A stretch of 64,000 nucleotides of DNA, from the NCBI RefSeq assembly GCF_019195455.1, contig NZ_JAIMBW010000001.1:3810001-3874000 (forward strand), given 5' to 3'. Shown here one piece after another: positions 21,667-47,104 of the stretch. The translations under genes were made by a program, and so were the position numbers. This stretch comes from Gymnodinialimonas phycosphaerae. Its GTDB lineage: Bacteria; Pseudomonadota; Alphaproteobacteria; Rhodobacterales; Rhodobacteraceae. The notes under the pieces are model-generated. The model saw only the letters and a list, made by a program, of their open reading frames with translations, was not told where the DNA came from and did not search any database. Every line of letters starts with the position of its first letter. Positions within the stretch are counted from its first letter, which is position 1.

Positions 21667-22461
21667 TTAATGCGTCCGTTCGACCATCATCTTCTTGATC
21701 GAGGCAATCGCCTTGGCCGGGTTCAGGCCCTTGGGGCAGGTCTTGGTGCAGTTCATGATCGTGTGGCAACGGTAGAGCTTGAAGGGGTCTTCCAGCTCGT
21801 CCAGACGCTCTCCGGTGGCCTCATCGCGGCTGTCGATGATCCAGCGGTAGGCGTGCAGAAGGGCGGCGGGCCCGAGGTAGCGGTCGCCGTTCCACCAATA
21901 AGACGGACAGGACGTGGAGCAGCAGGCGCACATGACGCATTCATAGAGACCGTCGAGTTTCTCACGATCGTCGATGCTTTGACGCCACTCTTTCTCGGGC
22001 CGGGAGGTCTTGGTTTCCAGCCATGGCATGATGGAGGCGTGTTGGGCGTAGAAATGCGTCAGGTCTGGGATCAGGTCCTTTACCACGGGCATGTGGGGCA
22101 GGGGGTAGATGGCGATATCGCCGTCGACTTCGTCCATGCCATAGATGCAGGCCAGCGTGTTGGTGCCCTTGGACTTCACGCCGCCGATGTTCATCGCGCA
22201 GGACCCGCAGATCCCTTCGCGGCAGGAACGGCGGAAGGTCAGGGTCGGATCGATCTCGTTCTTGATCTTGATCAGCGCGTCCAGAACCATCGGGCCGCAG
22301 GTGTCCATGTCGACCCAATAGGTGTCGATGGAGGGGTTCTTTCCGTCATCGGGGTTCCAGCGATAGATCTGGAATTTGCGCAGGTTGGTCGCGCCTTCGG
22401 GCTTCGGCCAGGTCTTGCCATGCGTGATGCGAGAGTTCTTGGGGAGGGCGAGTTCAACCAT
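21667..22461 (-). CDS. sdhB: succinate dehydrogenase iron-sulfur subunit
   Basis: Carries electrons from the flavin of SdhA to ubiquinone at the SdhCD anchor. The 264-residue protein has an N-terminal ferredoxin domain with Cys80, Cys85, Cys88 and Cys105 for the [2Fe-2S] centre, then [12 protein letters not shown] and [15 protein letters not shown] for the [4Fe-4S] and [3Fe-4S] centres. The loop between Cys88 and Cys105 is about five residues longer (GVKSKGT) than the usual 12-residue spacing. It is the last gene of the sdh operon and is separated from sdhA by three lipoprotein genes. Confidence 0.96.
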
Positions 22462-23342: not shown

Positions 23343-25163
23343 TCAATACACCCGTGCCTTTGGCTTGATCTTGTCCATGTCGATCCCGCCCTCGTTATGG
23401 CCGATCAGCGGGCTGAGGCCCACGGCGCGATAATCCAGGTCCACCTTGTTGCCATCGACCGTCGCCAGCGAATGCTTGCGCCAGTTCTTGTCGTCGCGGT
23501 CGGGATAATCCTCGTGGGCATGGGCGCCCCGGGATTCCTTGCGCGCTTCGGCCCCGGCGATCGTCGCCAAGGCGTTGGGCATCAGGTTGGTCAGCTCCAG
23601 CGTTTCCATCAGGTCCGAGTTCCAGATCATCGACCGGTCCGTGACGGCGATATCGTCCATCTTGCCCGCGACGGAGGTCATCTTCTCCAGCCCTTCGGCC
23701 AGCGTCTTGTCGGTGCGGAACACGGCAGCGTCGGCCTGCATGGTCTTCTGCATTTCCAGGCGCAACTCGGCCGTGGAGAGACTGCCCGAGGCATGGCGCA
23801 CGTCGTCAAAGCGTGCCAGCGCCTTGTCGATCTGGCTTTGCGGCACATCGGGGTTGGTCTCGTTCGGGTCCACGATCTCGCCCGCCTTGATGGCGGCCGC
23901 GCGGCCAAAGACCACCAGGTCGATCAAGGAGTTGGAGCCCAGGCGGTTCGCCCCGTGGACAGAGGCACACCCGGCCTCGCCCACGGCCATGAGGCCCGGA
24001 ACGATGCGGTTTGGGTCTTTCTCGGTGGGGTTCAGTACCTCGCCCAGGTAGTTCGTGGGGATGCCGCCCATGTTGTAATGCACCGTGGGCAGAACCGGGA
24101 TCGGTTCCTTCGTCAGGTCGACGCCTGCGAAGATGCGCGCGCTCTCGGAAATACCCGGCAGGCGCAGGTCCAGCGTTTCCTTGGGCAGGTGGTTGAGGTG
24201 CAGGTGAATATGATCCTTCTGCTCGCCCACGCCGCGGCCTTCGCGGATCTCCATCGTCATGCAGCGCGAAACCACGTCGCGTGACGCCAGATCCTTGTAG
24301 GTGGGCGCGTAGCGTTCCATGAACCGCTCACCTTCGGAGTTGGTCAGGTAGCCGCCTTCGCCCCGCGCGCCCTCGGTGATCAGGCAACCCGCGCCGTAGA
24401 TGCCGGTGGGGTGGAACTGCACGAACTCCATATCCTGAAGCGGCAGCCCTGCGCGCGCGACCATGCCACCGCCGTCGCCGGTGCAGGTGTGGGCCGAGGT
24501 GGCGGAGAAATAGGCGCGGCCATAGCCGCCTGTCGCCAGAACGCACATCTTGGAATGGAAGACATGCATCGTGCCGTCGTCCAGCTTCCACGCGACGACG
24601 CCGACGCATTGGCCTTCATCGTTCATCAGAAGGTCAGTCGCGAAGTACTCGATGAAGAATTCCGCGTCGTTCTTGAGCGACTGGCCATAGAGCGTGTGCA
24701 GGATCGCGTGACCGGTCCGGTCGGCGGCGGCACAGGTGCGTTGCACGGGGGGGCCTTCGCCGAATTCGGTGGTATGGCCACCGAAGGGGCGCTGGTAGAT
24801 CTTGCCCTCTTCGGTGCGAGAGAACGGCACGCCGTAGTGCTCCAGCTCATAGACCGCCTTGGGCGCTTCGCGCGCGAGGTATTCCATCGCGTCCGTGTCG
24901 CCCAACCAGTCCGAGCCCTTCACGGTGTCATACATGTGCCAGTGCCAGTGGTCCGGCCCCATGTTGCCAAGGCTGGCGGCGATGCCGCCTTGGGCTGCCA
25001 CAGTGTGCGAGCGGGTCGGGAACACCTTGGAGATGCAGGCTGTCTTCAGGCCCTGCTCGGCCATGCCAAGCGTTGCACGCAGGCCCGATCCGCCCGCGCC
25101 TACGACGACAACGTCATAGGTGTGGTGGGTCAAGGCATAGGCGGGAGAGGTCGTATCTTTCAT
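23343..25163 (-). CDS. sdhA: succinate dehydrogenase flavoprotein subunit
   Basis: Oxidises succinate to fumarate using covalently bound FAD on the cytoplasmic side of complex II. The 606-residue chain shows the dinucleotide fold [11 protein letters not shown] (20-30), the FAD-linked His53 in [10 protein letters not shown], the FGGHTTEFG and FHPTG substrate-site blocks, the active-site Arg region [11 protein letters not shown] and the C-terminal [14 protein letters not shown]. It follows sdhD by 10 bp and precedes the first lipoprotein by one base. Confidence 0.97.
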
Positions 25164-25173
25164 CGTCAGCTCC

Positions 25174-25545
25174 TCAAAGCGCGATTTGCATCAGGGCCAC
25201 AAGGCCGCCAGCGGCCAGCCCGTAACAGATGATTGTGGTCGCGATGATCGAGACCTTCTTGGTCAGCCCGTGGGTGTAGTCTTCCAGCAGGGTCTGCATC
25301 CCGTAACGTAGGTGGTGGGCGCCAACGACAAGGTAGGCCGCGACAATCAGCGCAGGCACCGGCTTGCCAAGGGTGGCGATGACGTCTGCATGCTCGGACC
25401 CAAGGGCGGACCCGATGATGCCCAGAAAGAACGGCGTCAGGATCAGAAGCGCCACGGAGGTGACGGTCATCGTCCAATGCTGCGCAGTGCCGCCATGGGC
25501 GGAGCCGAGGCCGGAAACACGTTTGCGGTCGGTAAGATATGCCAT
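25174..25545 (-). CDS. sdhD: succinate dehydrogenase membrane anchor subunit
   Basis: A 123-residue protein with three transmembrane helices (about 26-48, 62-82, 95-118). The second helix carries [16 protein letters not shown], with the His expected to bind haem b and the Tyr/Asp near the quinone site. It anchors SdhAB with SdhC. It lies between sdhC (10-bp gap) and sdhA (10-bp gap). Confidence 0.92.
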
Positions 25546-25555
25546 GTTATGCCCC

Positions 25556-25939
25556 TTAAATCGCGATGAGCGTGAGGAAGGTGAGCGCGACAGAGCCGAT
25601 CAGCATGCCCCAACCCATCTTGTCAGACGTCTCGACATCCAGGCCGTAGCCCGCGTCCCACACCAGATGCCGCACACCGCCAAGCGCGTGATACCAGAGC
25701 CCAAGGACACTGAGCGACATGACGATATCGCCAAGGAAGCTGGTCACCCAGCCGTCTACCGTGGCGAAGTACTCTGGCCCCGAAGCCGCCACCATCAGCC
25801 ACCAGACCACAAGGATGCCCGAGACCAGCATGGCGTTGCCGGTGATCCGCACGAGGATCGAGGTGATGGAGTTCAGCTGCGGTTTGTAGATCGTCAGATG
25901 AGGTGAAAGCGGACGATTGCCGCGGTTGACGTCTGCCAT
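25556..25939 (-). CDS. sdhC: succinate dehydrogenase cytochrome b556 subunit
   Basis: A 127-residue, three-helix subunit with the N-terminal signature RPLSPHLTIYKPQ and the haem-ligand block WYHALGGVRHLVWD. It is the first gene of the sdh operon; AGGGGA lies about 9 bases before the ATG. The paired TGTGATCACA palindromes lie 144-174 bp upstream. Confidence 0.94.
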   Translation of the reverse strand: MADVNRGNRPLSPHLTIYKPQLNSITSILVRITGNAMLVSGILVVWWLMVAASGPEYFATVDGWVTSFLGDIVMSLSVLGLWYHALGGVRHLVWDAGYGLDVETSDKMGWGMLIGSVALTFLTLIAI

Positions 25940-26082
25940 GGCGACGGTTCCCCTTAAGTGTGTGCCGTGTCTAGCTAGTGCCAGTCGTTGACGTAGGAAT
26001 AAGGGGATTTGCCGGTGTAGTCACGCGTTAGGGGGGTAAAATTGAAAGCAAGTGTGGGGCTTAACGCCGCAGAATGGGGTAG

Positions 26083-26113
26083 TGTGATCACAGGTAAAGC
26101 AGGTGTGATCACA
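26083..26113. promoter_or_regulatory. paired TGTGATCACA operators upstream of sdhC
   Basis: Two identical perfect 10-bp palindromes TGTGATCACA at 26083-26092 and 26104-26113, 21 bp apart from start to start (two helical turns). They lie in the roughly 230 bp between sdhC and the DoxX gene stop. An identical pair with identical spacing lies upstream of sucC. Confidence 0.7.
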
Positions 26114-26170
26114 AGTTAAGGAGGCCCAGGCTTTTGACCCGGGCGCCCTTGGGGTCGCAGGACCCGTGAA

Positions 26171-26596
26171 TCAGATGCGATTCCCACGCGCGATGAACCA
26201 TGCGCCCAAGAACAGGACGACGGTGTGGAACTCCATGCCGCCGAAGGGGTGGCTTTCAGAGGGGAGGGCGCTCCACTGGCCCCAATGGACCAAAGCGATT
26301 GCGCCGATCATGATGGCCGCGATGATCGCGCCGCCTGCACGAGTCGACAGATCACCCAATGTGGTGCGCAGCGCGCCACCGGCGATCAAGGCGATGCCCG
26401 CAAGCACCTCGGTCACGGCCACGAGGGTCCAGAGCCACAGAGGAAGGCCCATGAATGCCGCGCCCGCTTCCAGCGCGGGAAGCTTGTCGATGCCATGATA
26501 AAGGAACACCCCTGCGACGGGCAGGCGCAGAAGCCAGTGGGTTTGCGCCAACCAGTCAGAGGAGGAGGCGGTGGTGTTGGTGGTCAGGGTTGCCAT
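26171..26596 (-). CDS. DoxX family membrane protein
   Basis: A 141-residue protein with four predicted helices (about 22-38, 50-75, 83-105, 118-137) and the DoxX-type beginning LLRLPVAGVFLYHGIDKL. Family members are small membrane proteins, some linked to quinone or redox stress. ATG at 26596 has a good CGGAGA site; the longer start 21 bases upstream overlaps it. It is single, between the sdh operon and the mesaconyl-CoA hydratase unit. Confidence 0.82.
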   Translation of the reverse strand: MATLTTNTTASSSDWLAQTHWLLRLPVAGVFLYHGIDKLPALEAGAAFMGLPLWLWTLVAVTEVLAGIALIAGGALRTTLGDLSTRAGGAIIAAIMIGAIALVHWGQWSALPSESHPFGGMEFHTVVLFLGAWFIARGNRI

Positions 26597-26697
26597 GATG
26601 ATGTCTCCGGCGATCAATGTTTCGATGCCGGGGACATAGCGACGCGCAGAAGTTCATGCAAAGCGCAGTTTGTGTGCATATTTGCAGATTTGTAGAC

Positions 26698-27732
26698 TCA
26701 GGTCGGGAGGAACGCCCAGTAGTCCAGATCCAGCAGCACCTCGGGGAGGTATTTGCCATCCTCGCCCCGCAACGCTCCGGCCTCGCCTTTGGTGGCCACG
26801 AGCCGCAAGCGCAGGGCGCCGACGTGGGGGTTGGAGGTGGGGGCCGTGTCAAGGACCTCGGACCAAGCGCGGATTGTGTCGCCGGCCATCGCCGGGTTGG
26901 CGTGGGCGCCTGCGTTGATCGCTGCCAGAAGTTGCGCGTTGGCGAGGCCATTGAACGACAGGGCACGGGCAAGCGAGATGATGTGGCCGCCGTAGATCAG
27001 GCGCTTGCCGTCGGGCCGCGCAGTGACGTCGAAATGGACTTTCGCCGTGTTCTGCCACAGGCGGGTGGCCATCATATGTTCGGGGTCGGTGAGGGTGACG
27101 CCATCGACGTGGTCGATGATCTCGCCCACGGTGTAATCTCCGTGGCGATGCGGCTCTCCGGCGAGGGCGAAATCGTAGGCGGACCAGTCCAGATCCTCGG
27201 GGATGTGCAGCGCGTCGGCGGGGACGACTTTGGCGAGGTCCGGCACGACGGGCGTGGGCGCAGGGGCGGCGGCGTCGCGTTTGCGGACCATGACCCAGCG
27301 CACGTATTCGAGTACCGGAATGTCGCTGTGGACGATGCCCGTCGTGCGAACCCAGACGATACCGGTCTTGCCGTTGGAATTTTCTTTCAGGCCAATGACT
27401 TCGGATGTGGCAGAGATGGTATCCCCCGCTTCGATCCGTTCCAGGAAACGCCCCTCGGCGTAGCCCAGGTTGGCGACCGCGTTGAGGGAGATATCGGGCA
27501 CGGTCTTGCCAAAGACAGTGTGGAACGTGATCAGATCATCAAGTTTCGGAATCTGGATCACCGCGCCGGGCGAGGCGAACTCGGTGGAGGAGTGCATCGC
27601 AAACCGGGGGCCGTAAAGCGCCTGATACATGGCCACATCGCCTTGGGTCACGGTGCGGGGCGTGGCGTGGCGCAGGATCTGGCCGACGCGATAATCCTCG
27701 AAGAAGTAGCCGGCGTTGGTTTTAGAGGTCAT
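26698..27732 (-). CDS. mch: mesaconyl-CoA hydratase (beta-methylmalyl-CoA dehydratase)
   Basis: Hydrates mesaconyl-C1-CoA to beta-methylmalyl-CoA in the ethylmalonyl-CoA pathway. The 344-residue protein has two hot-dog (MaoC-like) domains: the first with FFEDYRVGQILRH and TVTQGDVAMYQALYG, the second with LIYGGHIISLARALSFNG. Length and the first block fit Mch rather than shorter MaoC proteins. Last gene of a minus-strand operon after DUF1737, NnrU and the malyl-CoA thioesterase; overlaps the DUF1737 gene by 4 bp. Confidence 0.9.
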   Translation of the reverse strand: MTSKTNAGYFFEDYRVGQILRHATPRTVTQGDVAMYQALYGPRFAMHSSTEFASPGAVIQIPKLDDLITFHTVFGKTVPDISLNAVANLGYAEGRFLERIEAGDTISATSEVIGLKENSNGKTGIVWVRTTGIVHSDIPVLEYVRWVMVRKRDAAAPAPTPVVPDLAKVVPADALHIPEDLDWSAYDFALAGEPHRHGDYTVGEIIDHVDGVTLTDPEHMMATRLWQNTAKVHFDVTARPDGKRLIYGGHIISLARALSFNGLANAQLLAAINAGAHANPAMAGDTIRAWSEVLDTAPTSNPHVGALRLRLVATKGEAGALRGEDGKYLPEVLLDLDYWAFLPT

Positions 27733-27932
27733 TGCGCGCCCAGTTTCATGTCAGGGGAATAGGGGGCGTCGATGTCCTTCACCACGGCCTGTCCGCAGCG
27801 CATTACACCGCGGGCCGCATCGAAGGACATGGTGGGCGATCCGTGAAGGACCCACCCCTTGGCCAAGGCCTCGGACACTTTGTGGCAGAACGCCGAGGTG
27901 TCATCCTCGGTCAGGAGTCGGTAGATCTGCAT
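27729..27932 (-). CDS. DUF1737 protein
   Basis: A 67-residue soluble protein with YRLLTEDDTSAFCHKVSEAL and GWVLHGSPTMSFD, the DUF1737 signature. Function unknown in the family. It is embedded between NnrU and mch (overlapping mch by 4 bp), so it is part of the ethylmalonyl-CoA pathway transcript. Confidence 0.85.
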   Translation of the reverse strand: MQIYRLLTEDDTSAFCHKVSEALAKGWVLHGSPTMSFDAARGVMRCGQAVVKDIDAPYSPDMKLGAQ

Positions 27933-27935
27933 TGC

Positions 27936-28490
27936 TTATCCCCAGGGTTGATAGCCGAGCCAGTAGTGGATGAGCATGACGACCACGATGACCACGACGG
28001 TGGCGACGATGGCGGTGATCTCTTTCTTGATCGGCACGGGGTGGGGCGGCGTCCACGGCTCCCCCATCCGCTTGAGGATGATGACCTCTGCCACGGCCCA
28101 TGCGAGCAGCCCGCCGAACAGCACGAAGGACGCTAGGTCGCCGTTCACCAACAGGTGCGCCACGGCCCAGATCTTGAACCCCGTCAGTTGCGGATTTTTC
28201 ACCTTTGTGGTGATCCACGTCTTCGCGCCGGAGGCCGCGTAAAGGTAAAAGGCGAAGACCATCAACAGGTTATTGATACCCACCAGCGCAGGCGTGCGGC
28301 CCCACCAGAACGGGCCATAGGCACCACGATAGCCCACGACCATAAGTACGATGGAGACGACGATAAGGCCCGCAACGATGCCCTTGCCCTTGTCACCAAG
28401 CCTTGCGCGGCTGTCGGGGGCGAGGCGTTTCCAGAAGTGCGCGCCGGACCAGAGCAGGAGCCCTGCGATAAGTAGGATCCAGGACATCAT
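27936..28490 (-). CDS. NnrU family membrane protein
   Basis: A 184-residue protein with five or six transmembrane helices. The opening LLLWSGAHFWKRLAPDSR and the AVAHLLVNGDLASFVLFGG block are typical of NnrU, first seen near nitrite/nitric oxide reduction genes and common in Rhodobacterales near mcl and mch. Its ATGATG start overlaps the end of the malyl-CoA thioesterase gene by 4 bp. Exact role unknown. Confidence 0.88.
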   Translation of the reverse strand: MMSWILLIAGLLLWSGAHFWKRLAPDSRARLGDKGKGIVAGLIVVSIVLMVVGYRGAYGPFWWGRTPALVGINNLLMVFAFYLYAASGAKTWITTKVKNPQLTGFKIWAVAHLLVNGDLASFVLFGGLLAWAVAEVIILKRMGEPWTPPHPVPIKKEITAIVATVVVIVVVMLIHYWLGYQPWG

Positions 28491-29344
28491 GCGGCCTCCA
28501 ATGCGGCAATGGCGTCGGCCTTGGCGAGGGTCGCCCGGGCGGTTTCGACGTGCAGGTTCTCGACGATCTTGCCGTCCACGACGGCCACAGCTTCGCCCTT
28601 GGCAAGCGCGGCAACATAGGCGTCGATCTGGCGGCGGGCGAGGTCGATATCCTCGGCCGTGGGCCCGAAGGCCGCGTTGGCGATGGCGACTTGCGCCGGG
28701 TGAATCAGGGTCTTGCCGTCGAAGCCGAAATCGCGGCCCTGTTGGCATTCCGCGCGCAGGCCGTCTTCATCCTTGAAAGCATTGTAGACGCCATCGATGC
28801 AGAGGATGCCATGGGTGCGGGCGGCCAGAACGCATAGCTGAAGCGACATCATCATCGCGTCACGGGTCCGCGCGCCCAGGTCTTTGGCAAGGTCATTGGT
28901 GCCCATCACGAAGCCCGCCATGCGCGGGGCGCTTGCGATCTCGGCGGCGTTGAGGATGCCCTGGGGCGTTTCCATCATCGCCCAGATCCGGGTGTCTTGG
29001 GTCTTGGGATTCGCATCGAGCAGGGCGGCGAGCGCCTCGATATCCCGCGCGCTGTTGACCTTGGGCAGCAGCACGGCCTGGGGCGCGGCCTCGGCCAGGG
29101 TGGCCAGATCATCGGCGCCCCATGGGGTATCGAAGCCATTGATGCGGGTGATTTGCAGACGCGCGCCGTAGCCGCCGTCTTGCAGCGCGGTCTTCAGGGT
29201 GTCTCGCGCGGCGGGCTTCTCATCTGCGGCGACGGCATCTTCGAGATCGAAGATGATCGCATCGGTGGGAATCGTCTTCGCTTTCTCCAACGCGCGGGTG
29301 CGGGAGGCGGGAATATACAGGACGGATCGGCAGGGCTGTGTCAT
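28487..29344 (-). CDS. mcl2: CoA-ester lyase family, probable (3S)-malyl-CoA thioesterase
   Basis: A 285-residue HpcH/HpaI-CitE family enzyme. RSVLYIPASRTRALEKA binds CoA/phosphate, and IFDLEDAV, LPKVNS, METPQGI and GTNDLAKDL are the Mg2+ and substrate loops. The length (about 285, versus about 318 for malyl-CoA lyase Mcl1) and linkage to mch suggest (3S)-malyl-CoA thioesterase, which hydrolyses malyl-CoA to malate at the end of the ethylmalonyl-CoA pathway. A lyase activity cannot be excluded. First gene of the operon with NnrU, DUF1737 and mch; a TTGTTGCGC element lies 86 bp upstream. Confidence 0.82.
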   Translation of the reverse strand: MTQPCRSVLYIPASRTRALEKAKTIPTDAIIFDLEDAVAADEKPAARDTLKTALQDGGYGARLQITRINGFDTPWGADDLATLAEAAPQAVLLPKVNSARDIEALAALLDANPKTQDTRIWAMMETPQGILNAAEIASAPRMAGFVMGTNDLAKDLGARTRDAMMMSLQLCVLAARTHGILCIDGVYNAFKDEDGLRAECQQGRDFGFDGKTLIHPAQVAIANAAFGPTAEDIDLARRQIDAYVAALAKGEAVAVVDGKIVENLHVETARATLAKADAIAALEAA

Positions 29345-29429
29345 CGGGCACCGCGAGTTGCTTGATTTGGCCCTTTTGGGACCACATGGCCAAGGGAAAC
29401 GCAAGGGTCTTGCTGCAACGCAGAATGTC

Positions 29430-29438
29430 GCGCAACAA
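29430..29438 (-). promoter_or_regulatory. TTGTTGCGC element upstream of the mcl2-mch operon
   Basis: In the gene direction, TTGTTGCGCGAC, almost the same as TTATTGCGCGAC at ccr. Additional TTGC halves (CGTTGCGAAA, CGTTGCAGCA) flank it. It lies 86 bp before the ATG. Confidence 0.5.
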
Positions 29439-29609
29439 AATTTCGCAACGATTTTACCGGATATTAACCCCGATCCCGCAAAGTCGACCCGCAGGCACCC
29501 GACCAGAGGTGCAGCGCGATTGGAGGGAGGTCCACCTGGACCGGGTCGCTTCACGCACGCAATGCTTACCGCACGCAACGGCGTCCCGCTTTGAAAAGGG
29601 ACGAACGCT

Positions 29610-29942
29610 ATGAAAAGAATCGCATCCAATACCAAATTCGCCCTGGGCGCCTGGGTTGTTCTGGCCGTTTTGACGGCCATGCCCGCAAATGCCCAAAATC
29701 GAGGCCTTCAAATGCTCTGCGCGGATCGCAGCATCATCGTGGGCGAGTTGACCGGTCGCTACGGCGAGCAGGTTCACGGCATGGGATTGGCGCATCAGAA
29801 CCGCATCGTGGAGGTCTATGTTTCAGAAGAAACAGGGTCTTGGACGATCACCGTGACCTCGGCGGATGGCACCACATGCCTGATGGCGGCGGGTCAGCAT
29901 TTCGCCCAGATGCCCCCGGCGATACCCGGCGAAGACCTGTAA
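29610..29942 (+). CDS. hypothetical secreted protein
   Basis: Encodes 110 residues with a signal peptide (about 1-29, cleavage after ANA) and a small mature domain with two cysteines (QMLCADR, GTTCLMAA), probably joined in a disulfide. AAAAGGGA precedes the ATG. It lies divergent from the mcl2 operon and 116 bp upstream of mdh. No family recognised; the mature part resembles small periplasmic proteins annotated only as hypothetical in roseobacters. Confidence 0.65.
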   Translation: MKRIASNTKFALGAWVVLAVLTAMPANAQNRGLQMLCADRSIIVGELTGRYGEQVHGMGLAHQNRIVEVYVSEETGSWTITVTSADGTTCLMAAGQHFAQMPPAIPGEDL

Positions 29943-30055
29943 CAAACCCCTCGGATCGTCGGGTTGGGGCTATCCGCCGCGCACAGTCTCCTTGCGCCTG
30001 AGCCGTGCTGGGTCTACCCCTCCGCCCGACAAAACTCTGAATCCGAGGATCTTGA

Positions 30056-31021
<966 letters not shown>

Positions 31022-31043
31022 GCCGTTTCGACTTGAGCCAAGG

Positions 31044-31073
31044 GGGTCGGGTGCGTGCATCCGGCCCTTTTTT
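31044..31073 (+). terminator. terminator of mdh
   Basis: A 10-bp stem with two G-U pairs (GGGTCGGGTG / CATCCGGCCC), a CGTG loop and six T residues; it starts 22 bp after the stop codon. Confidence 0.88.
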
Positions 31074-31152
31074 GTGCGCTTTTCCCAAAACCCTTGCGGG
31101 TCTGGGGCGAAGTTGATTCAATCGCGCAAAATAACGCGAAAGAGGCAGCACC

Positions 31153-31611
31153 TTGGGCAAGCGGATCATCACCTACGGAACGTTCGACCTGTTCCACATC
31201 GGCCATGTGCGGCTGCTCAAGCGGTTGGCGGCCTTGGGTGATCACCTGACGGTCTGTGTGTCTTCGGATGAATTCAACGCCATCAAGGGCAAGAAAACTG
31301 TGATCCCTTACGCGCAACGGGCCGAGATCGTGGGCGCGTGTCGCTACGTGGACAACGTGCTGCCCGAACATGACTGGGACCAGAAGCGCGACGACATCGT
31401 GCGCGAAAAGATCGACATTTTCGCCATGGGCGACGATTGGAGCGGCAAGTTCAACGACCTTGGCGACCTGTGCGAGGTCTTCTACTTGCCCCGCACCGAG
31501 GACGTGTCCTCGACGTCGCTCAAGGCCTTCATGGAAGCGCTGCGCGATGAGCAGTTGAAAGAGGTCAAGCATTTGATCGAGACGCTGAACAGCAAAGCCG
31601 CGGGGCTCTGA
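31153..31611 (+). CDS. glycerol-3-phosphate cytidylyltransferase-like nucleotidyltransferase
   Basis: A 152-residue member of the TagD-like nucleotidylyltransferases: TYGTFDLFHIGHVRLLKR carries the HxGH motif, VCVSSDEFN and the YAQRAEIV loop follow, and EDVSSTSLK is the C-terminal ISTTxI-like nucleotide block. The reaction would be CTP plus glycerol-3-phosphate giving CDP-glycerol. Start is TTG at 31153 (MGKRIITYGT); AGAGG precedes it. Next gene, 3 bp on, is LicD-like, so the pair probably makes a glycerol- or choline-phosphate decorated surface polymer. Confidence 0.85.
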   Translation: MGKRIITYGTFDLFHIGHVRLLKRLAALGDHLTVCVSSDEFNAIKGKKTVIPYAQRAEIVGACRYVDNVLPEHDWDQKRDDIVREKIDIFAMGDDWSGKFNDLGDLCEVFYLPRTEDVSSTSLKAFMEALRDEQLKEVKHLIETLNSKAAGL

Positions 31612-31614
31612 ACG

Positions 31615-32496
31615 ATGGACAGTACCCAATTGATTGACACGGTGTGGGACAGGGTTCGGGGCGACAAGATCCCGAAGGACGATTGGCAAAAGATGCACGA
31701 AGCGCTGGAGGCCGTGCGTGACCCCCGCGACCCGAAATGGGTGCAGGCGTGGATCGCGTTGAACTGCGCCACGCGGCAAAAGGCTTTTGCCACCCAACGG
31801 CTGATGTCGCGGTATTCCAAGCAGTGCCTCAAGCGCGACGCGATGGATGAATTCAACGAATTTCTCCGGTATTTGCAGGACGATCTGGGCTTCTACCTGC
31901 CCAACGGCAGCGCCTACACCGAAAGTTTCCGAACGGCGGATGTAGAGGCGGTGATCGCCAAGTGCAGCGACTTGGCCGACCAGTTGGCCGAGCTGGATCT
32001 AGAGGTCTTCGCGAACTCCGGCACGCTTCTGGGGATCGTGCGCGAAGGCACCCTTCTGGAGCATGACAACGACATCGATCTGGGTGTCCTGCTGGAGGCG
32101 CGCACGGAAAAGGACGCGGCGACGGAGTGGCTGGCGCTGTGCGATCGGCTGATCAAGGACGGCGTCGCGGTGGAGCGGTCTTCCTGGAGCAAGGTGACGC
32201 TGAAGTTGCAGAAAATCGGCATCTTCGGGGTGGACCTGTTCCCGGCCTGGATCGACGGCGACGACAAGTTGTACGTCTACCCGCACACCTTTGGGGCGAT
32301 GACGCGGCCGCAGCTTCTGCCCTACACCCGCCACGCGGCCACCGGCCTGTGCCTGCCCGCCGATGCAGAGGCGATGCTGGTGTGCAATTACGGCACCGAT
32401 TGGCGCGTGCCCAATGCCGGGTGGACCTTTGGCTGGAAGACCGCGAATGAGAACTTCGCGGGTTTTCTGGATGAGGTCGAAAAGGCGATTGGTTAG
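31615..32496 (+). CDS. LicD-like phosphotransferase
   Basis: A 293-residue protein. Residues about 110-160 hold the LicD signature, FANSGTLLGIVREGTLLEHD followed by NDIDLGV, whose acidic residues bind metal in nucleotidyltransferase-fold transferases of phosphocholine or other polyol phosphates. The N-terminal 100 residues are helical and unmatched. It starts 3 bp after the cytidylyltransferase gene and is convergent with the glycosyltransferase gene 9 bp beyond its stop. A role in attaching the CDP-linked group to a glycan is likely but inferred. Confidence 0.75.
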   Translation: MDSTQLIDTVWDRVRGDKIPKDDWQKMHEALEAVRDPRDPKWVQAWIALNCATRQKAFATQRLMSRYSKQCLKRDAMDEFNEFLRYLQDDLGFYLPNGSAYTESFRTADVEAVIAKCSDLADQLAELDLEVFANSGTLLGIVREGTLLEHDNDIDLGVLLEARTEKDAATEWLALCDRLIKDGVAVERSSWSKVTLKLQKIGIFGVDLFPAWIDGDDKLYVYPHTFGAMTRPQLLPYTRHAATGLCLPADAEAMLVCNYGTDWRVPNAGWTFGWKTANENFAGFLDEVEKAIG

Positions 32497-32505
32497 GGGG
32501 CGGGC

Positions 32506-33535
32506 TTAAATCACGCCATTCTTGCGCGCTTTGCGCAGCCATTTGTCGACCTTCGGTCGCAACAGCGCATCGAAGTATTCTGGGCTGAGGTGCACCGTTT
32601 GCCCTGGAAACGCGGCAGCCAGCGCAGGCCCAAGGTCATATCGATCCCTTGTGATATGGCCGTTGTCTTCCAGCGCCTCGATCTCGGTTGGGTGATATCC
32701 GGTGAGCTGCTCGTAAGGCGCGCGTAGTGCGTCCGCATCGTTCACACAGCCAAGGATCTCGCGCCATTGCGCGATGCGGAAGGGGGGGTAGCTGCGCCAG
32801 GAATTCCGGAGAGTTGGCGGCCTGTCGCACGAACTTGGCCGCCCAATGCAGCGGGGTCAGCCCGTCGAAATGCGCCAGCTCGATCTGGTCGGCGGGGTAA
32901 TGTGGCGGCACCACGCGGTCCTTGATGTGCCCGTGGCGGGGCACGTGGATGCCGATGTTCATGCCAATCCGCGTGCGCACGAACGGCTTGCCTGCCGCGT
33001 GCCCCGTAAACCCGAAGGGCGCAAGCTCCGAGGTGCGTAGGGGTGTGTCCTCGCGGCCCTGATAGTGAACCTTGAAGACGCCATCGAAAATCGTCGTTTG
33101 CCGTGCGCTCTTTATCGTCGTGCGTTCGAGGTTGAAGACCTTCATCCATGTCGCCGCCTCGGGGATCTCGGACAATTGCAGCGCCACATCCGAGCCGGGG
33201 CGCAGAAATTCGTCGGCATCGCAGCTAAGCAGAAAGTCGACGTTGCACCGGGCCTGGGCCCGCGTTGCGTTGATCGACTGGCGGTTGTTTTGCCGCCGTG
33301 GGCGGCGCGGCGCGGCGGTGGCCCAATAGACCCGATCGCAGCGAGTGACATGGGCCGGGGGGATCCAGTCGAGGGTATCGGCCGCCGGATCATAGGGATC
33401 ATCGAAGTAGAGGCGGATTTCCCGCGCCCCCAAAGCCAGGTGATGGGCCACGAAAGCCAGGACAAGGGGCGCCGGTTCCGCGATGGTGGCGACAATGCCC
33501 CATGTCGGTGTGCGCTTGGGCTGTGGCTTTGACAT
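32506..33535 (-). pseudogene. glycosyltransferase family 2-type gene with a frameshift at a C7 run
   Basis: From ATG 33535 the frame encodes a GT-A-like glycosyltransferase: IVATIAEPAPLVLAFVAHH, FLLSCDADEFL (DxD region) and HYPADQIELAHF. After a run of seven C on the coding strand (32782-32788), the frame turns into low-complexity Arg-rich sequence. The original reading resumes one frame over (IAQWREILG, then ADALRAPYEQL to KWLRKARKNGVI, stop 32506). Removing one C restores a continuous 342-residue protein. So the gene is frameshifted, phase-variable, or misread. It belongs with the polymer genes next to it. Confidence 0.72.
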
Positions 33536-33645
33536 TGCGCGCTGTTCGCCGCTTTGTATCCGGTCGCTCGAAGCTTGCGCCGGATCAGGGGTGCCGCAAG
33601 GGAAAGCGGTGAGTCGGGGTAGGGTAAGGGGATTCCCACAATATT

Positions 33646-33676
33646 TGTGATCACACTTTTTTTGCCTGTGATCACA
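33646..33676. promoter_or_regulatory. paired TGTGATCACA operators upstream of sucC
   Basis: Two identical perfect palindromes at 33646-33655 and 33667-33676, again 21 bp apart. Together they make a larger inverted repeat, TTTGTGATCACA...TGTGATCACAAA. They lie 111-141 bp before the sucC ATG. The same pair and spacing is found at sdhC. Confidence 0.72.
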
Positions 33677-33786
33677 AATGTCGGATTTTGCCGCAAATCC
33701 TATTGAATAGGGCACTTTACCGTTCCATTGCCCGCGTGGGTTGTGTTTACGTCAGACGACCATGACCAAATGAACGGACCTTTTTC

Positions 33787-34980
33787 ATGAACATTCATGA
33801 GTACCAGGCGAAAGCCCTCCTCGCGCAATATGGCGCTCCGGTGTCTGATGGACGCGTTGTCCTGAGGGCGGAAGAAGCCAAGACGGCGGCGGGCGAAATG
33901 GACGGGCCTTTGTGGGTCGTGAAAGCACAAATCCACGCGGGCGGACGCGGCAAAGGCAAATTCAAGGAAGCCGACGCCGGTGAAGCTGGCGGTGTGCGCC
34001 TTGCGAAATCGGCGCAGGAAGCGGCCGATGAGGCCAAGAAGATGCTTGGCCGCACTCTGGTGACGCACCAGACCGGGCCCGCAGGCAAACAGGTCAATCG
34101 CATCTACATCGAAGACGGGTCCGGCATCGAGACCGAGATGTACCTGGCGCTTCTGGTGGATCGCCAGACCAGCCGCATCAGCTTTGTCTGCTCGACCGAG
34201 GGCGGCATGGACATCGAAGAAGTCGCTGCCGCGACGCCTGAAAAGATCCTGAGCTTCTCTGTCGATCCCGCGACAGGCTACCAGCCGTTCCATGGCCGCC
34301 GTGTCGCCTTCTCGCTGGGGCTGAAAGGCCAGCAGGTCAAGCAATGCGTCAAGCTGATGGGGCAACTCTTCAAGGCCTTCCAGGAGAAGGACATGGAGAT
34401 GCTGGAGATCAACCCGCTGATCGTGACCGACAGCGGGGACCTGAAAGTTCTTGATGCCAAGGTCAGCTTTGACGGCAACGCCGTCTACCGCCACGCCGAT
34501 GTGGCCAGCTTGCGCGATGAAACGGAAGAGGATGCCAAGGAATTGGCGGCCTCCAAGTTCGACCTCAACTATATCGCTTTGGACGGTGAGATCGGCTGCA
34601 TGGTCAACGGCGCGGGCCTTGCCATGGCGACGATGGACATCATCAAGCTTTACGGTGCTGAGCCCGCCAACTTCCTTGACGTGGGCGGTGGCGCCACGAA
34701 GGAGAAGGTTACAGAGGCATTCAAGATCATCACCTCGGACCCGCAGGTGAAGGGCATTTTCGTCAACATCTTCGGTGGGATCATGCGCTGCGATATCATC
34801 GCCGAAGGCGTGATCGCGGCGGTGAAAGAGGTGGGTCTTCAGATGCCGCTGGTCGTGCGCCTGGAAGGCACCAACGTCGAGAAGGGCAAGGAGATCATCA
34901 ACAACTCCGGCCTTGATGTGATCGCGGCGGATGACCTGAAGGACGGCGCGCAGAAGATCGTGAAGGCTGTGAAAGGCTGA
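33787..34980 (+). CDS. sucC: succinyl-CoA synthetase (ADP-forming) beta subunit
   Basis: Forms succinate and ATP (or GTP) from succinyl-CoA with SucD. The 397-residue protein begins [18 protein letters not shown], with the ATP-grasp domain ([15 protein letters not shown]) in the N-terminal half and the CoA-ligase fold with [12 protein letters not shown] and [10 protein letters not shown] in the C-terminal half. First gene of a long plus-strand TCA gene cluster. Three unrelated genes separate it from sucD, which is unusual. Confidence 0.97.
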
Positions 34981-37046: not shown

Positions 37047-37928
37047 ATGGCCGTACTCGTTGACGAAAATACCAAGGTGATCTGCCAAGGTTTCACCGGA
37101 TCCCAAGGCACGTTCCATTCGGAACAGGCGATTGCCTATGGCACCAAGATGGTCGGCGGCGTCACCCCCGGCAAAGGTGGCATGACGCACCTGGATCTGC
37201 CCGTGTTCAACTCGGTCCATGAGGCCAAGCACGTGACCGAAGCCAACGCCTCGGTGATCTATGTGCCGCCGCCCTTCGCCGCTGATTCCATCCTTGAGGC
37301 GATCGATGCCGAGATGGAGCTGATCATCTGCATCACCGAAGGCATTCCGGTGCTCGACATGATGCGCGTGAAGCGCGCGCTGGAGGGGTCTTCGTCGAAG
37401 TTGATCGGCCCCAACTGCCCCGGTGTCATCACGCCGGACGCCTGCAAGATCGGCATCATGCCCGGTCACATCCACAAGCGTGGGTCTTGCGGCGTCGTTT
37501 CGCGCTCGGGCACGCTGACCTATGAGGCCGTGAAGCAAACCACCGATGTGGGTCTGGGCCAGTCCACCTGCGTGGGCATCGGTGGTGACCCGATCAAGGG
37601 GACCGAGCATATCGACGTGCTGGAATGGTTCCTGGCCGATGATGAGACGCAAAGCATCATCATGATCGGTGAGATCGGTGGCAGCGCTGAAGAAGAAGCC
37701 GCACAGTTCCTCGCTGATGAGAAGAAGCGCGGCCGCTGGAAGCCCACGGCGGGCTTCATTGCTGGTCGCACGGCCCCTCCGGGTCGTCGCATGGGTCACG
37801 CCGGTGCAATTGTTGCCGGTGGCAAGGGCGGCGCGGAAGACAAGATCGAAGCGATGAAGTCTGCGGGCATCATCGTGGCCGACAGCCCGGCGACGTTGGG
37901 TGAGGCTGTTGTCGAGGCGATTGGCTAA
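37047..37928 (+). CDS. sucD: succinyl-CoA synthetase (ADP-forming) alpha subunit
   Basis: Partner of SucC. The 293-residue protein has the CoA-binding N-terminal domain ([30 protein letters not shown]) and the ligase domain with the phosphorylated His in [17 protein letters not shown]. The ATG follows GGAGG (about 37037). It starts 246 bp after the inserted lipoprotein gene and is followed after 3 bp by DUF805 genes. Confidence 0.97.
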
Positions 37929-40174: not shown

Positions 40175-43132
40175 ATGAATGACCAATCTCCCAACGATAC
40201 ATTCCACGCCTCCAGCTTCATGCAGGGGCACAATGCGGAATATCTGGAGCAGCTTTACGCCCAATATGCCAAGGATCCGGCTGCGGTGGATGCGGCCTGG
40301 GCGGACTTCTTTGCGCAACTTGGCGACGCCGAGGATGCACAGGCCGAAGCCACCGGGCCTTCGTGGGCGCGCACCGACTGGCCGCCCATGCCGGGCGATG
40401 ACCTGACAGCGGCGTTGACCGGCGAATACCCGGTCGCGGCCGAGGGAAAAGAGGCGGGTAAGAAAATCGCTGCGAAGGCCGAGGAAAAGGGCGTCGAGTT
40501 GACCGACGACCAGATCCAGCGCGCCGTGCTCGACAGCATTCGCGCCCTGATGATCATCCGCGCCTACCGCATCCGGGGGCATCTGGTGGCAGATCTGGAT
40601 CCGCTGGGGATGCGCGATCAGACGCCGCATCCGGAACTGGACCCGGCGTCCTACGGCTTCACCGATGCCGACATGGACCGCCCGATCTTCATCGATAACG
40701 TGTTGGGTCTTCAAATGGCCTCGATGCGGCAGATCATCGACATTGTGAAGCGGACCTACTGCGGCACGTTTGCGTTGCAGTACATGCACATATCCAACCC
40801 CGTGGAAGCCTCGTGGCTGAAAGAGCGGATTGAAGGCTACGGCAAGGAGATCGCCTTCACCAAGGAAGGCCGCAAGGCGATTCTCAACAAGATGGTTGAG
40901 GCGGAAGGGTTCGAGAAGTTCCTTCACGTCAAATACATGGGCACCAAGCGGTTTGGCCTTGATGGCGGCGAAAGCCTGATCCCCGCGATGGAGCAGATCA
41001 TCAAACGCGGCGGTCAGTTGGGCATCGAAGAGATCGTCATCGGCATGCCGCACCGGGGCCGTCTGTCGGTTCTGGCCAACGTGATGGCCAAGCCCTACCG
41101 CGCGATTTTCAACGAGTTCCAGGGCGGGTCGTTCAAGCCCGAAGATGTCGATGGGTCGGGCGATGTGAAATATCACCTCGGCGCGTCAAGTGACCGGGAA
41201 TTTGACGACAATGTCGTACACCTGTCGCTGACCGCGAACCCGTCGCATCTGGAGGCGGTAAACCCGGTCGTGTTGGGCAAGGTGCGCGCCAAGCAGGATC
41301 AGAAGGGCGACAGCGACCGCACGAAGGTCATGGGTATTTTGTTGCACGGTGATGCGGCTTTTGCGGGGCAGGGCGTTGTGGCGGAAGGCCTTGGCCTTTC
41401 GGGCCTGCGCGGGCACCGCACCGGCGGCACCATCCACATCATCGTCAACAACCAGATCGGCTTTACGACGGCGCCGCACTTTTCGCGGTCGTCTCCGTAT
41501 CCGACGGATATCGCGTTGATGGTGGAAGCGCCGATTTTCCACGTGAACGGCGATGATCCCGAGGCGGTGGTCCACGCCGCCCGCGTGGCGACGGAATTCC
41601 GTCAGATGTTCCACAAGGACGTGGTCATCGACATCTTCTGCTACCGCAGGTTCGGTCATAACGAGGGCGACGAGCCCATGTTCACCAACCCGATCATGTA
41701 CAAGAAGATCAAGACCCAACGCACAACGCTGGCGCTTTATACGGAGCGGCTGGTCAAGGATGGTCTGATCCCCGAAGGCGAGATCGAGGACATGAAGGCC
41801 TCGTTCCAGTCCTATCTGAACGAGGAATTCGAGGCCGGAAAAGACTTCAAACCCAACAAGGCGGATTGGTTGGACGGGCGCTGGTCGCACCTCGACCGCA
41901 AGGACGAGGCCGCCTATGAGCGCGGAGCCACCGCCATCAAGCCCGAGACCTTCGCAGAAATCGGCAAGGCGCTGAGCACCGCGCCCGAGGGCGTGAGCCT
42001 GCACAAGACCGTGGAGCGTTTGCTGGACGCGAAAGCGAAGATGTTCGAGACCGGCAAAGGCTTTGACTGGGCGACCGGAGAGGCCCTGGCCTTCGGGTCG
42101 TTGCTGACCGAGGGCTACCCGGTGCGCCTGTCAGGCCAGGACAGCACGCGGGGCACGTTCAGCCAGCGGCATTCGGGCCTGATCGACCAGGAGACGGAGG
42201 ATCGGTACTACCCGCTCAACAATATTCGGGAGGGTCAGGCGCATTACGAGGTCATCGACTCGATGCTGTCGGAATACGCGGTGCTGGGGTTCGAATATGG
42301 CTACACGCTGGCCGAGCCCAACGCACTGACCCTGTGGGAGGCGCAGTTCGGCGATTTCGCCAACGGCGCGCAGATCATGTTCGATCAGTTTATCTCAAGC
42401 GGAGAACGCAAGTGGCTGCGGATGAGTGGTCTGGTCATGTTGTTGCCTCACGGGTTCGAGGGGCAGGGGCCGGAACACTCGTCGGCACGGCTGGAGCGCT
42501 TCTTGCAGATGTCGGCCGAGGATAACTGGATCGTCGCCAATTGCACGACGCCGGCGAACTACTTCCACATTCTGCGCCGCCAGATTCACCGTGATTTCCG
42601 CAAGCCGCTGGTGCTAATGACGCCGAAATCCCTGCTGCGCCACAAGCTGGCGATCAGCGAGGCCGAGGATTTCACCACCGGATCGAGCTTCCACCGCTGC
42701 CTCTGGGATGATGCCCAGAAGGGCAACTCGGACACCGAGTTGGTGGCCGATGAGAAGATCAAGCAGGTCGTGATATGCTCGGGCAAGGTCTACTTCGACC
42801 TGCTGGAAGAGCGCGACGCACGGGGGATCGACGACGTCTACCTGCTGCGGCTGGAACAGTTCTACCCGTTCCCTGCGCTGGCCCTGACCAAGGAGCTTGA
42901 GCGCTTCAAGGCAGCCAAGATCGTCTGGTGCCAGGAAGAACCGAAGAACCAGGGGGCGTGGTCGTTCATCGAGCCGAACCTTGAGTGGGTGCTGACGCGC
43001 ATCGGCTCGGATACGACACGCCCGCGCTATGCGGGTCGCAACGCTTCGGCCTCGCCCGCGACGGGCTTGGCCTCCGCCCATAAATCCCAACAAGCAGCAC
43101 TCATCGACAGTGCGCTGACCATCGAAGGGTAA
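40175..43132 (+). CDS. sucA: 2-oxoglutarate dehydrogenase E1 component
   Basis: Decarboxylates 2-oxoglutarate with thiamine diphosphate and passes the succinyl group to the lipoyl arm of SucB. The 985-residue chain has the N-terminal peripheral-subunit segment ([16 protein letters not shown]), [14 protein letters not shown], the ThDP region with [13 protein letters not shown] and NNQIGFTT, and the C-terminal transketolase part ([19 protein letters not shown]). It precedes sucB by 4 bp. Confidence 0.97.
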
Positions 43133-43136
43133 TAAA

Positions 43137-44642
43137 ATGTCTGTAGAAGTTCGTGTGCCCACTCTGGGCGAATCCGTGACCGAGGCGACCGTGGCGACAT
43201 GGTTCAAGAAGCCTGGCGATGCCGTGGCCGTCGATGAAATGCTGTGCGAGTTGGAGACCGACAAGGTGACGGTGGAAGTGCCCTCGCCCGCCGCCGGCAC
43301 GCTGGGTGAGATCGTGGCCGCAGAAGGCGAGACCGTTGGCGTTGACGCGCTTCTGGCGACGTTGAGTGAAGGCAAAGGCGCCGCAGCTGCCCCGAAGGGG
43401 AAGGACAAAGCGCCCGCCGTTGCCGACCCTGTGGACGCGAATGCGGCCGATGCTGTTGATGTGATGGTTCCCACGCTGGGGGAAAGCGTGACAGAGGCGA
43501 CGGTTTCCACGTGGTTCAAGAAAGTTGGCGACACGGTCGCGCAGGACGAAATGCTGTGCGAGTTGGAGACCGACAAGGTTTCGGTCGAGGTGCCCTCGCC
43601 TGCGGCAGGCGTGTTGAGTGAGATCCTGGCGGCGGAAGGGTCCACGGTTGAAGCCTCGGCGAAGCTGGCTGTGATTGGTGGCGCTGTCGCGGCAGATGCC
43701 TCTTCGGACGCTCAAGCGCCCTCCTCGCAGGGGAACGGTGGCAAGGACGTGTCCAATGCGCCCTCGGCGGAGAAGTTGATGGCAGACAAGGGCCTGTCGG
43801 CGGACCAGGTGCAGGGTACCGGTCGCGATGGGCGGATCATGAAGGAAGATGTGATGAAGGCGGCAGCGGCCCCGGCGCCTGCGGCGACCGCGCCCGCCCC
43901 GCCTGCCCAAACGCCTCGCGCCCCCGTCGCGGCCAGCGACGAGGCCCGTGAAGAGCGGGTCAAGATGACCCGCTTGCGCCAGACCATCGCGCGCCGCCTG
44001 AAGGACGCGCAGAACACGGCGGCGATCCTGACCACCTACAACGAGGTCGACATGACCGAGGTCATGGCGCTGCGCAACGAGTACAAGGATCTGTTCCTGA
44101 AGAAGCACGGGGTAAAGCTTGGCTTCATGTCGTTCTTTACCAAGGCCTGTGTCCATGCCCTGCGCGAAGTGCCCGAGGTGAATGCCGAGATCGACGGGCA
44201 AGAAATCGTCTACAAGAACTTCATCCACATGGGGATTGCGGCGGGAACGCCCCAGGGCCTTGTGGTGCCGGTGATCCGCGACGTGGATGGGATGAGCTTT
44301 GCTGATATCGAGAAGGCAATTGCCGAGAAGGGCGCCCGCGCCCGTGATGGCAAGCTGTCCATGGCCGAGATGCAGGGTGGCACGTTCACGATCTCCAACG
44401 GTGGGGTCTATGGCTCGCTGATGTCCTCGCCGATCCTGAACCCGCCGCAGTCGGGTATCCTGGGCATGCACAAGATCCAGGAACGTCCCATGGCGATTGG
44501 CGGTCAGGTCGTGATCCGTCCAATGATGTACCTGGCGCTGTCCTATGACCACCGGATCGTGGACGGCAAAGGCGCGGTGACGTTCCTTGTGCGGGTGAAA
44601 GAGGCGTTGGAGGATCCGCGGCGGTTGCTGATGGACTTGTGA
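43137..44642 (+). CDS. sucB: 2-oxoglutarate dehydrogenase E2 component with two lipoyl domains
   Basis: Dihydrolipoyllysine succinyltransferase core of the complex. The 501-residue protein has two tandem lipoyl domains (Lys43 and Lys147, both in ELETDKV) joined by an Ala/Pro/Lys linker, a peripheral-subunit-binding domain ([16 protein letters not shown]) and the catalytic domain ending in [12 protein letters not shown]. The two lipoyl repeats are very similar at DNA level too (43150-43310 versus 43460-43620). Double lipoyl domains are common in this order. Confidence 0.96.
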
Positions 44643-45715: not shown

Positions 45716-47104
45716 ATGTCCAGCTACGACGTCATCGTAATCGGTTCCGGCCCCGGCGGCTATGTCTGCGCGATCCGCTGCGCGCAACTGGGCCTGAAAG
45801 CCGCTGTTGTTGAGGGGCGAGAGACCCTTGGCGGAACCTGTCTGAACATCGGGTGCATTCCTTCCAAGGCGCTGCTGCATGCGAGCCACATGTTGCATGA
45901 GGCGGAGCACAACTTCGCTGCCATGGGCCTGAAGGGCAAAAGCCCCTCGGTCGACTGGGCGCAGATGCAGGAATACAAGAAGGACACCATTGGCCAAAAT
46001 ACCAAGGGGATCGAATTCTTGTTCAAAAAGAACAAGATAGACTGGCTGAAGGGCTGGGGCTCTATCCCCGAGGCGGGCAAGGTCAAGGTGGGCGACGAGG
46101 TACACGAAGCCAAGACGATCATCGTGGCGTCCGGGTCTGAGCCGTCGTCGCTGCCTGGGATCGAAATCGACCAGAAGGTCGTCGTGGACAGCGAAGGGGC
46201 GCTGAGCTTGCCGAAGGTGCCCAAGAAGATGGTGGTGATCGGGGCGGGCGTGATTGGGCTTGAATTGGGCTCGGTCTATTCGCGGCTGGGGTCCGAGGTG
46301 CAGGTGATTGAATTCCTCGACCACATCACGCCGGGCATGGATGCCGAGACTTCCAAGGTGTTCCAGAGAACCCTGAAAAAACAAGGCATTGACTTCACCC
46401 TCGGGGCTGCGGTGCAAAGCGTTTCCGCCACGAAGACCAAGGCGAAAGTGACCTACAAGCTGCGCAAGGATGACAGCGAGGCCACGGTGGACGCGGATGT
46501 CGTTCTGGTGGCGACCGGGCGCAAGCCCTACACGGATGGTTTGGGCCTTGAGGCGCTGGGCGTGAAGATGTCGGATCGCGGCCAGATCGAGGTTGACGGC
46601 CAGTACCGCACCAACGTTCCGGGCATTCTGGCGATCGGCGATGCGATCGCGGGCCCGATGCTGGCCCACAAGGCCGAGGATGAGGGCATGGCCGCCGCGG
46701 AAGTGGCCGCAGGCAAGCATGGCCACGTGAACTACGGCGTGATCCCCGGCGTGATCTACACCCACCCCGAAGTGTCGAATGTCGGGGCCACGGAAGAAGA
46801 CCTGAAAGAGGCCGGGCGCGCGTACAAGGTCGGCAAGTTCTCGTTCATGGGCAATGGGCGTGCCAAGGCGAACTTCGCGGGCGACGGTTTCGTGAAGATC
46901 CTTGCCGATGCCGAAACGGACCGCATCTTGGGTGCCCATATCATCGGGCCGATGGCGGGTGATCTGATCCACGAGATCTGTGTGGCAATGGAATTCGGCG
47001 CCTCGGCCCAGGATCTCGCCATGACGTGCCACGCACATCCGACGTACTCGGAAGCCGTGCGCGAAGCGGCATTGGCCTGCGGCGACGGGGCGATCCACGC
47101 CTGA
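45716..47104 (+). CDS. lpd: dihydrolipoyl dehydrogenase
   Basis: Reoxidises the lipoyl arm of SucB with NAD. The 462-residue flavoprotein has [12 protein letters not shown] for FAD, the redox pair Cys42/Cys47 in [13 protein letters not shown], a [15 protein letters not shown] loop, and the C-terminal [13 protein letters not shown] with the catalytic His. It closes the sucA-sucB group; AGGAGAC precedes the ATG. Confidence 0.96.

Follow-up and report, generated by a model that had tools for sequence, protein, structure and literature searches.

Paired Palindromes Upstream of sdhC and sucC as Probable Operators of the GntR/FCD Regulator AkgR in Gymnodinialimonas phycosphaerae and Its Family

Results

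Palindrome Pairs Upstream of sdhC and sucC

We analyzed a 64,000-nt stretch of the Gymnodinialimonas phycosphaerae genome (contig NZ_JAIMBW010000001.1, positions 3,810,001 to 3,874,000; referred to below as the window), in which two operons of the tricarboxylic acid (TCA) cycle, sdhCDAB and the suc genes, are each preceded by a pair of palindromes. The palindrome TGTGATCACA was found in four exact copies in the window, at 26083, 26104, 33646, and 33667. The copies form two pairs, with a spacing of 21 bp within each pair both before sdhC and before sucC. An earlier reading of the letters alone (the sequence-only reading) had reported these coordinates and the 21-bp spacing, and the window scan showed both to be correct. 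The putative operators and the genes of the two operons are located in the window as follows.

26104..26113, no strand assigned: TGTGATCACA, putative sdh operator, distal to the promoter (motif match)
26083..26092, no strand assigned: TGTGATCACA, putative sdh operator, proximal to the promoter (motif match)
25556..25939, minus strand: sdhC, Sdh_cyt (Pfam domain)
25174..25545, minus strand: sdhD, Sdh_cyt (Pfam domain)
23343..25163, minus strand: sdhA, FAD_binding_2 and Succ_DH_flav_C (domain matches)
21667..22461, minus strand: sdhB, Fer2_3 and Fer4 (domain matches)
33646..33655, no strand assigned: TGTGATCACA, putative suc operator, distal to the promoter (motif match)
33667..33676, no strand assigned: TGTGATCACA, putative suc operator, proximal to the promoter (motif match)
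33787..34980, plus strand: sucC, ATP-grasp_2 and Ligase_CoA (Pfam domains)
37047..37928, plus strand: sucD, CoA_binding and Ligase_CoA (domain matches)
40175..43132, plus strand: sucA, 2-oxoglutarate dehydrogenase E1 (domain matches)
43137..44642, plus strand: sucB, E2 acyltransferase (domain matches)
45716..47104, plus strand: lpd, E3, Pyr_redox_2 (domain matches)

The left-hand pair lies upstream of sdhC, sdhD, sdhA, and sdhB on the minus strand, and 144 bp separate the sdhC start codon from the final C of the proximal GTGATCAC, the core of the palindrome. The sucC start is 111 bp from the right-hand pair on the plus strand. Downstream of sucC, on the same strand, are sucD, sucA, sucB, and lpd. 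Other genes interrupt this series on either side of sucD: the sucC-sucD and sucD-sucA intervals (35425-36800 and 38513-40136) contain a DUF805 gene, a gene resembling methyltransferases, and two open reading frames (ORFs) without Pfam matches.

Shuffled windows contained a mean of 0.02 copies of TGTGATCACA over 100 shuffles and none of them reached four, in agreement with the earlier statement that four such palindromes are unlikely by chance. The pattern TGTGATCACA-N11-TGTGATCACA gave two matches in the window even with three mismatches allowed, and none in the shuffles. Single sites with two mismatches were at background level (19 found vs. 20.4 expected); thus only the exact or near-exact pairs carry signal. 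In the whole genome (4,324,088 bases), TGTGATCACA was present in six exact copies. The two copies outside the window are both located within ORFs, and the genome scan detected no exact partner for either of them; the ORF of one also contains a near copy, CGTGATCACA, at a distance of ∼110 bp. The pair is therefore not spread over many unrelated sites, a point that the sequence-only reading had referred to a genome scan. Within the window, no other target of paired boxes was seen beyond sdh and suc. The pattern KGTGATCACM with one mismatch was set aside for searching, as its 898 matches genome-wide were too many.

Conservation of the Pairs in the Family

The family sample consisted of 244 genomes drawn evenly from the order of the window, all of one family and representing 100 genera (single genomes are cited by labels such as G010). 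The pattern GTGATCAC-N0-30-GTGATCAC was present at least once in 239 of the 244 genomes, mostly exactly twice, and a reversed-pattern control was present in one. Among the matches listed, 70 of 75 pairs had a spacer of 12 or 13 bp, which corresponds to 20 or 21 bp from center to center. Outside the family, a pair with a spacer of 8-18 bp was found in 5 of 285 genomes of the class.

The sequence-only reading had named a lack of conservation in close relatives as a refuting outcome, but the pairs proved to be conserved at both genes. In 20 relatives, selected because two exact pairs share one contig, each stretch spanning the two pairs (20/20) had one pair upstream of sdhC and the other upstream of sucC. 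An exact pair was located 88-118 bp upstream of the sucC start in 226 of the 244 family genomes. At suc sites with an N13 spacer (n = 59, with an exact GTGATCAC core by construction), TTT precedes (81-98% per base) and AAA follows (95-98%). The inner spacer is rich in A+T (66% at suc, 65% at sdh) relative to the window (37%). The bases at 33677-33689 (AAATGTCGGATTTT), directly after the suc pair, are conserved beyond the palindrome in many of the relatives examined.

Third pairs in two genomes were considered as TCA targets and rejected: that of G010 belongs to an inverted repeat flanked by sugar-type genes, and that of G234 is inside an Mfd-like ORF (names given by eye from the translations). 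In another family, pairs spaced 21 bp (G389) and 22 bp (G257) from center to center are located beside TonB-receptor-like genes, also named by eye from translations.

A GntR/FCD Regulator Lost Together With the Pairs

The window encodes one candidate that fits the pairs.

48186..48839, minus strand: GntR/FCD regulator, probable AkgR orthologue (Pfam, homology, and tree)

This protein matched the Pfam domains GntR (E 4e-13) and FCD (E 2.8e-21). Pfam lists only these two, and an HTH_6 (RpiR) domain was not found. A homologue at E ≤ 1e-15 is present in 242 of the 244 family genomes, and the best E-value was ≤ 1e-79 in 239 of them, followed by a gap to 5e-57 (E-values read by eye). Five genomes are without an exact pair: G110, G227, G141, G232, and G231. 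No regulator homologue was found in G232, and those of G141, G110, and G227 showed 35, 50, and 47% identity, respectively; in the tree, the G110 and G227 homologues are placed just outside the orthologue clade. No pair was detected within 350 bp upstream of sucC or sdhC in these four genomes. G231 has kept the orthologue together with degenerate pairs at both genes, with the same 21-bp spacing. Fisher's exact test of exact pairs vs. orthologue gave p = 1.7e-7, or 3.5e-8 if G231 is counted as paired. The sucC upstream stretches of G110 and G227 share another palindrome, TGGTATACCA, which is not found before sdhC.

The same box was found upstream of the regulator gene itself. We examined named relatives, namely the closest 80 of at least 395 confirmed matches, and 64 of these have GTGATCAC within 60 bp upstream of the regulator gene start (0.05 expected from shuffles). 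The full TGTGATCACA accounts for 54 of the 66 sites, and the box lies some 10-30 bp upstream of the start codon. A ygjP-like gene is directly upstream of the regulator gene in 74 of the 80, and G147 carries a double box at -51 and -38 before akgR. Among the matches listed outside the orthologue clade, GTGATCAC was found upstream (≤1500 bp) of 7 of 25 distinct genes, with the first copy at -32, -33, -45, -80, -91, -168, and -336. The -32 and -33 boxes belong to the AkgR-like genes of G110 and G227, and the furthest box (-336) may be a chance occurrence. The -168 box has a partner at -147, and this pair precedes an AkgR homologue of 31% identity in another family (the G389 locus). G354 has a pair with a spacer of 16 bp located 150 bp past the end of a 38%-identical gene. 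Judging from these upstream boxes, we take GTGATCAC as the probable specificity of the subfamily. Most probably, it is this GntR/FCD protein (48186-48839) that acts on the pairs.

The closest solved sequence to this protein is E. coli McbR (PDB 4p9f, E 9.9e-23). Its top NCBIfam match is NF008504 (PRK11414), which we take to be McbR. The assignment of the window protein as McbR was rejected, as it scored 88 bits vs. the NF008504 cut-off of 225. In the predicted structure, the mean predicted local distance difference test (pLDDT) score was 81.4 for the best of five models and 59.7 for the worst; the model consists of helices plus two short strands, the latter in the N-terminal domain. Three residues, N138, H142, and H185, do not vary among 27 orthologues; they may contribute to a metal site like that of Atu1419, which consists of one Asn and three His. 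A Hint_2-domain protein (47209-48189) adjoins the regulator gene on the opposite strand, with a 4-bp overlap of the ends.

Published Regulators of the Same Kind

We assume that RSP_0981 is AkgR of Rhodobacter sphaeroides. A 2015 paper (PMC4344238) assigns RSP_0981 to the GntR family and predicts sucCD, sdh, and 2-oxoglutarate dehydrogenase as its targets, and a passage of a 2019 paper lists GTGATCAC among the AkgR sites and uses the name "transcriptional activator AkgR." Two features of that regulon, a GntR-type regulator and the GTGATCAC box at sdh and suc, are found here as well. The 20-21 bp pairing, the stepped promoter distance (see below), and the akgR box are not in the passages found and may be in the primary paper. 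The pair spacing and the promoter distance were not recognised in the literature searched, which did not cover the primary AkgR paper, so we do not claim them as unpublished. For the exact TGTGATCACA, the literature gave no paper recognisable from its title or the start of its abstract as concerned with this regulator.

The sequence-only reading had proposed two candidates, the GntR/FCD protein at 48186-48839 and AkgR as an RpiR-type activator. The first fits the evidence; the second was misplaced in its class, since the published description of RSP_0981 calls it GntR. With RSP_0981 taken as AkgR and GTGATCAC among the AkgR sites, the two candidates are most likely one protein.

PS417_07240 of Pseudomonas simiae (deoxyribonate cluster), which the passage found gives as 32% identical to AkgR, carries GTGATCAC upstream of its own gene (-47 to -40 relative to the start codon), a box that is conserved in its homologues. 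It differs from AkgR in its targets, and that passage describes no pair.

Distance Between the Pairs and the Promoters

The following conserved elements are located between the pairs and the genes.

26019..26024, minus strand: GTGACT, -35-like element of the sdh promoter (proposed from conservation)
25996..26001, minus strand: TATTCC, -10-like element of the sdh promoter, 17 nt after GTGACT (conservation)
33717..33724, plus strand: TTACCGTT, window copy of the conserved promoter-side element of suc (putative; -35 or other; motif search)

The most conserved stretch downstream of the sdh pair is GTGAC[AT], followed 16-18 bp later by TATTCC or a similar word in many genomes; the two are presumed to be the -35 and -10 elements of sdh. 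The pair is upstream of these elements and does not overlap them, and in the window the centers of its two palindromes are about 98 and 119 bp upstream of the presumed start. Distances at sdh were scanned as the pair, 44-74 bp, and GTGACW, which matched 197 of the 244 genomes. Of 150 matches listed, 145 were kept, one per genome (four were dropped for wrong pair orientation and one as a duplicate). The distances fall into three classes: 47-50 bp (18 genomes, 5 genera), 56-61 bp (108 genomes), and 69-71 bp (19 genomes, 9 genera). Distances of 51-55 and 62-68 bp are absent from the 145 genomes. The ranges are about one helical turn apart, and two genera contain both the middle and the long form. 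Twenty-six sdh promoters were examined in full; G138 has a distance of 80, and in G139 and G157 the word is ATGAC, at 60 and 69. If the 14 displaced genera were free to take any of the 25 other scanned positions, the chance that all of them fall on these 7 would be ∼2e-8, a figure for which the ranges were set after data inspection and the genera are not fully independent.

For suc, an unsupervised motif search with no distance prior was performed on 67 sequences, each beginning 20 bp past the pair and ending 24 bp short of the start. The last 24 bases were trimmed because the initial search recovered the ribosome-binding site instead. The 12-base motif found, AAAAAGCCGTTT, starts 26-28 bp after the pair in 18 of 67 sequences and 35-38 bp after it in 41 of 67. 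With an 8-base motif, the distances were 29-31 bp in 13 of 67 and 38-42 bp in 41 of 67. The two main classes at suc are about 10 bp apart; 40 of the 67 sequences were hand-picked across the range of lengths, with many short ones among them, a choice that could sharpen the two classes, so the class proportions are no census. TATTGA near the suc pair was considered as a promoter and dropped, as it is not conserved.

Whole-turn spacing to the promoter is typical of upstream activators. The stepped pair-to-promoter distances are consistent with activation by two dimers from one fixed face of the DNA, and the pairs appear to keep the same helix face toward the promoter in many members of the family.

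Discussion

We regard it as likely, with considerable confidence, that the pairs are AkgR operators, that AkgR is the protein at 48186-48839, and that paired dimers activate sdh and suc from a fixed face. One AkgR dimer would bind each 10-bp palindrome. Two dimers placed 20-21 bp apart, or about two turns, would lie on the same DNA face and act as one unit. The unit would stand upstream of the core promoter and activate by contact or by DNA bending that requires a fixed helical face, and sdhCDAB and the suc genes would be switched together. The earlier proposal, in which a dimer pair co-ordinates sdh and suc, is consistent with the evidence. In many relatives, the further box just before akgR would serve the control of its own gene.

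For the direction of regulation, the main rival is repression by looping. The pairs could be AkgR operators at which AkgR represses sdh and suc, or only bends or loops DNA without contact to RNA polymerase, a reading that we consider unlikely. GntR proteins are often repressors, and the akgR box, ∼10-30 bp before the start codon, is in a place where a repressor could act. A relevant relative is Atu1419 of Agrobacterium fabrum, a GntR/FCD protein and VanR member. According to the passages found, it binds one 10-bp palindrome as a dimer in crystals and controls its own gene, as would AkgR; it differs in being a repressor with the palindrome ATGTATACAT, is a tetramer in solution, and joins sites 190 bp apart via a DNA loop. 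Against repression at sdh and suc, the sdh pair is upstream of the conserved promoter elements and not over them, and AkgR is called an activator in the 2019 paper, as far as its passage goes. The whole-turn spacing is likewise a trait of upstream activators, though repression loops are also phase-sensitive.

It is very improbable that another transcription factor binds the pairs and that the GntR protein was lost together with them by chance. Such a factor would account for G023, which has both pairs and no homologue above 30% identity, and the joint loss is seen in only three genera. The same palindrome, however, stands before the GntR gene in most of the closest named relatives and upstream of more than a quarter of the distant homologues, and the published passage ties GTGATCAC to AkgR. 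An RpiR-type regulator is scarcely credible: no support was found for it, although the RpiR protein HexR is described, in the passages found, as regulating central carbon genes in other proteobacteria; the predicted controller RSP_0981 is called GntR (passage of PMC4344238), and the three RpiR genes of the genome are located elsewhere, none near the six exact palindromes. Sites of a CRP/FNR-type regulator are just as implausible, as the TGTGA/TCACA half-site letters resemble the CRP consensus but CRP half-sites need 6 bp between them, whereas in the present pairs nothing separates the half-sites, and 11 bp separate the two palindromes.

Several points weigh against activation of both operons by AkgR from a fixed face. 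The proposal rests on sequence comparison plus published passages. The link between RSP_0981 and AkgR is assumed, and the orthology of the window protein to RSP_0981 is deduced from the presence of a single well-conserved orthologue in 239 of the 244 family genomes. RSP_0981 would, by its tag number, be near sdh, whereas in the window the regulator gene lies beyond the lpd end of the suc genes. Co-loss of pairs and regulator is limited to three genera and is thus not proof by itself, and G023 (27 candidates scored) reflects either an assembly gap or a real loss. No box precedes akgR in the window or its genus, where the regulator gene abuts ygjP, and the box is missing in 16 of the 80 closest named relatives. 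At sdh, GTGACW was not found in the scanned range in 47 of the 244 genomes, and G198, one of the 26 promoters examined in full, is without a GTGACW-like word. The sdh steps average ∼11 bp; the periodicity score has a broad peak at 11-11.5 (0.88), compared with 0.85 at 10.5. At suc, AAAAAGCCGTTT falls outside both clusters in 8 of 67 sequences, three of them at 31-32 bp, and the 8-base motif does so in 13 of 67. In addition, RSP_1663 and NtrC were also predicted at sdh in the passage found (PMC4344238), so AkgR need not act alone.

A further proposal on AkgR as an activator has, in our estimate, an even chance of being right. AkgR would be a face-locked two-dimer unit that evolution shifted by whole helical turns at sdh in many genera, and independently at suc, with the face kept; at sdh, such shifts are suggested by three distance ranges and one outlier at a fourth. 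A GntR/FCD regulator would then co-activate the TCA cycle from an upstream position by phase-dependent contact, having been recruited from an older self-regulating subfamily with the same palindrome.

We concluded that each palindrome pair is a genuine and strongly conserved operator for a regulator of a known kind, and that the regulator has very probably been identified. A single exact operator links two TCA operons with their probable regulator, and nearly all genomes sampled from a large bacterial family have it. The natural spacing variants provide a ready set for measuring the activation geometry of a GntR/FCD regulator. If true, the face-locked unit would amount to a natural spacing experiment carried out over the whole family.

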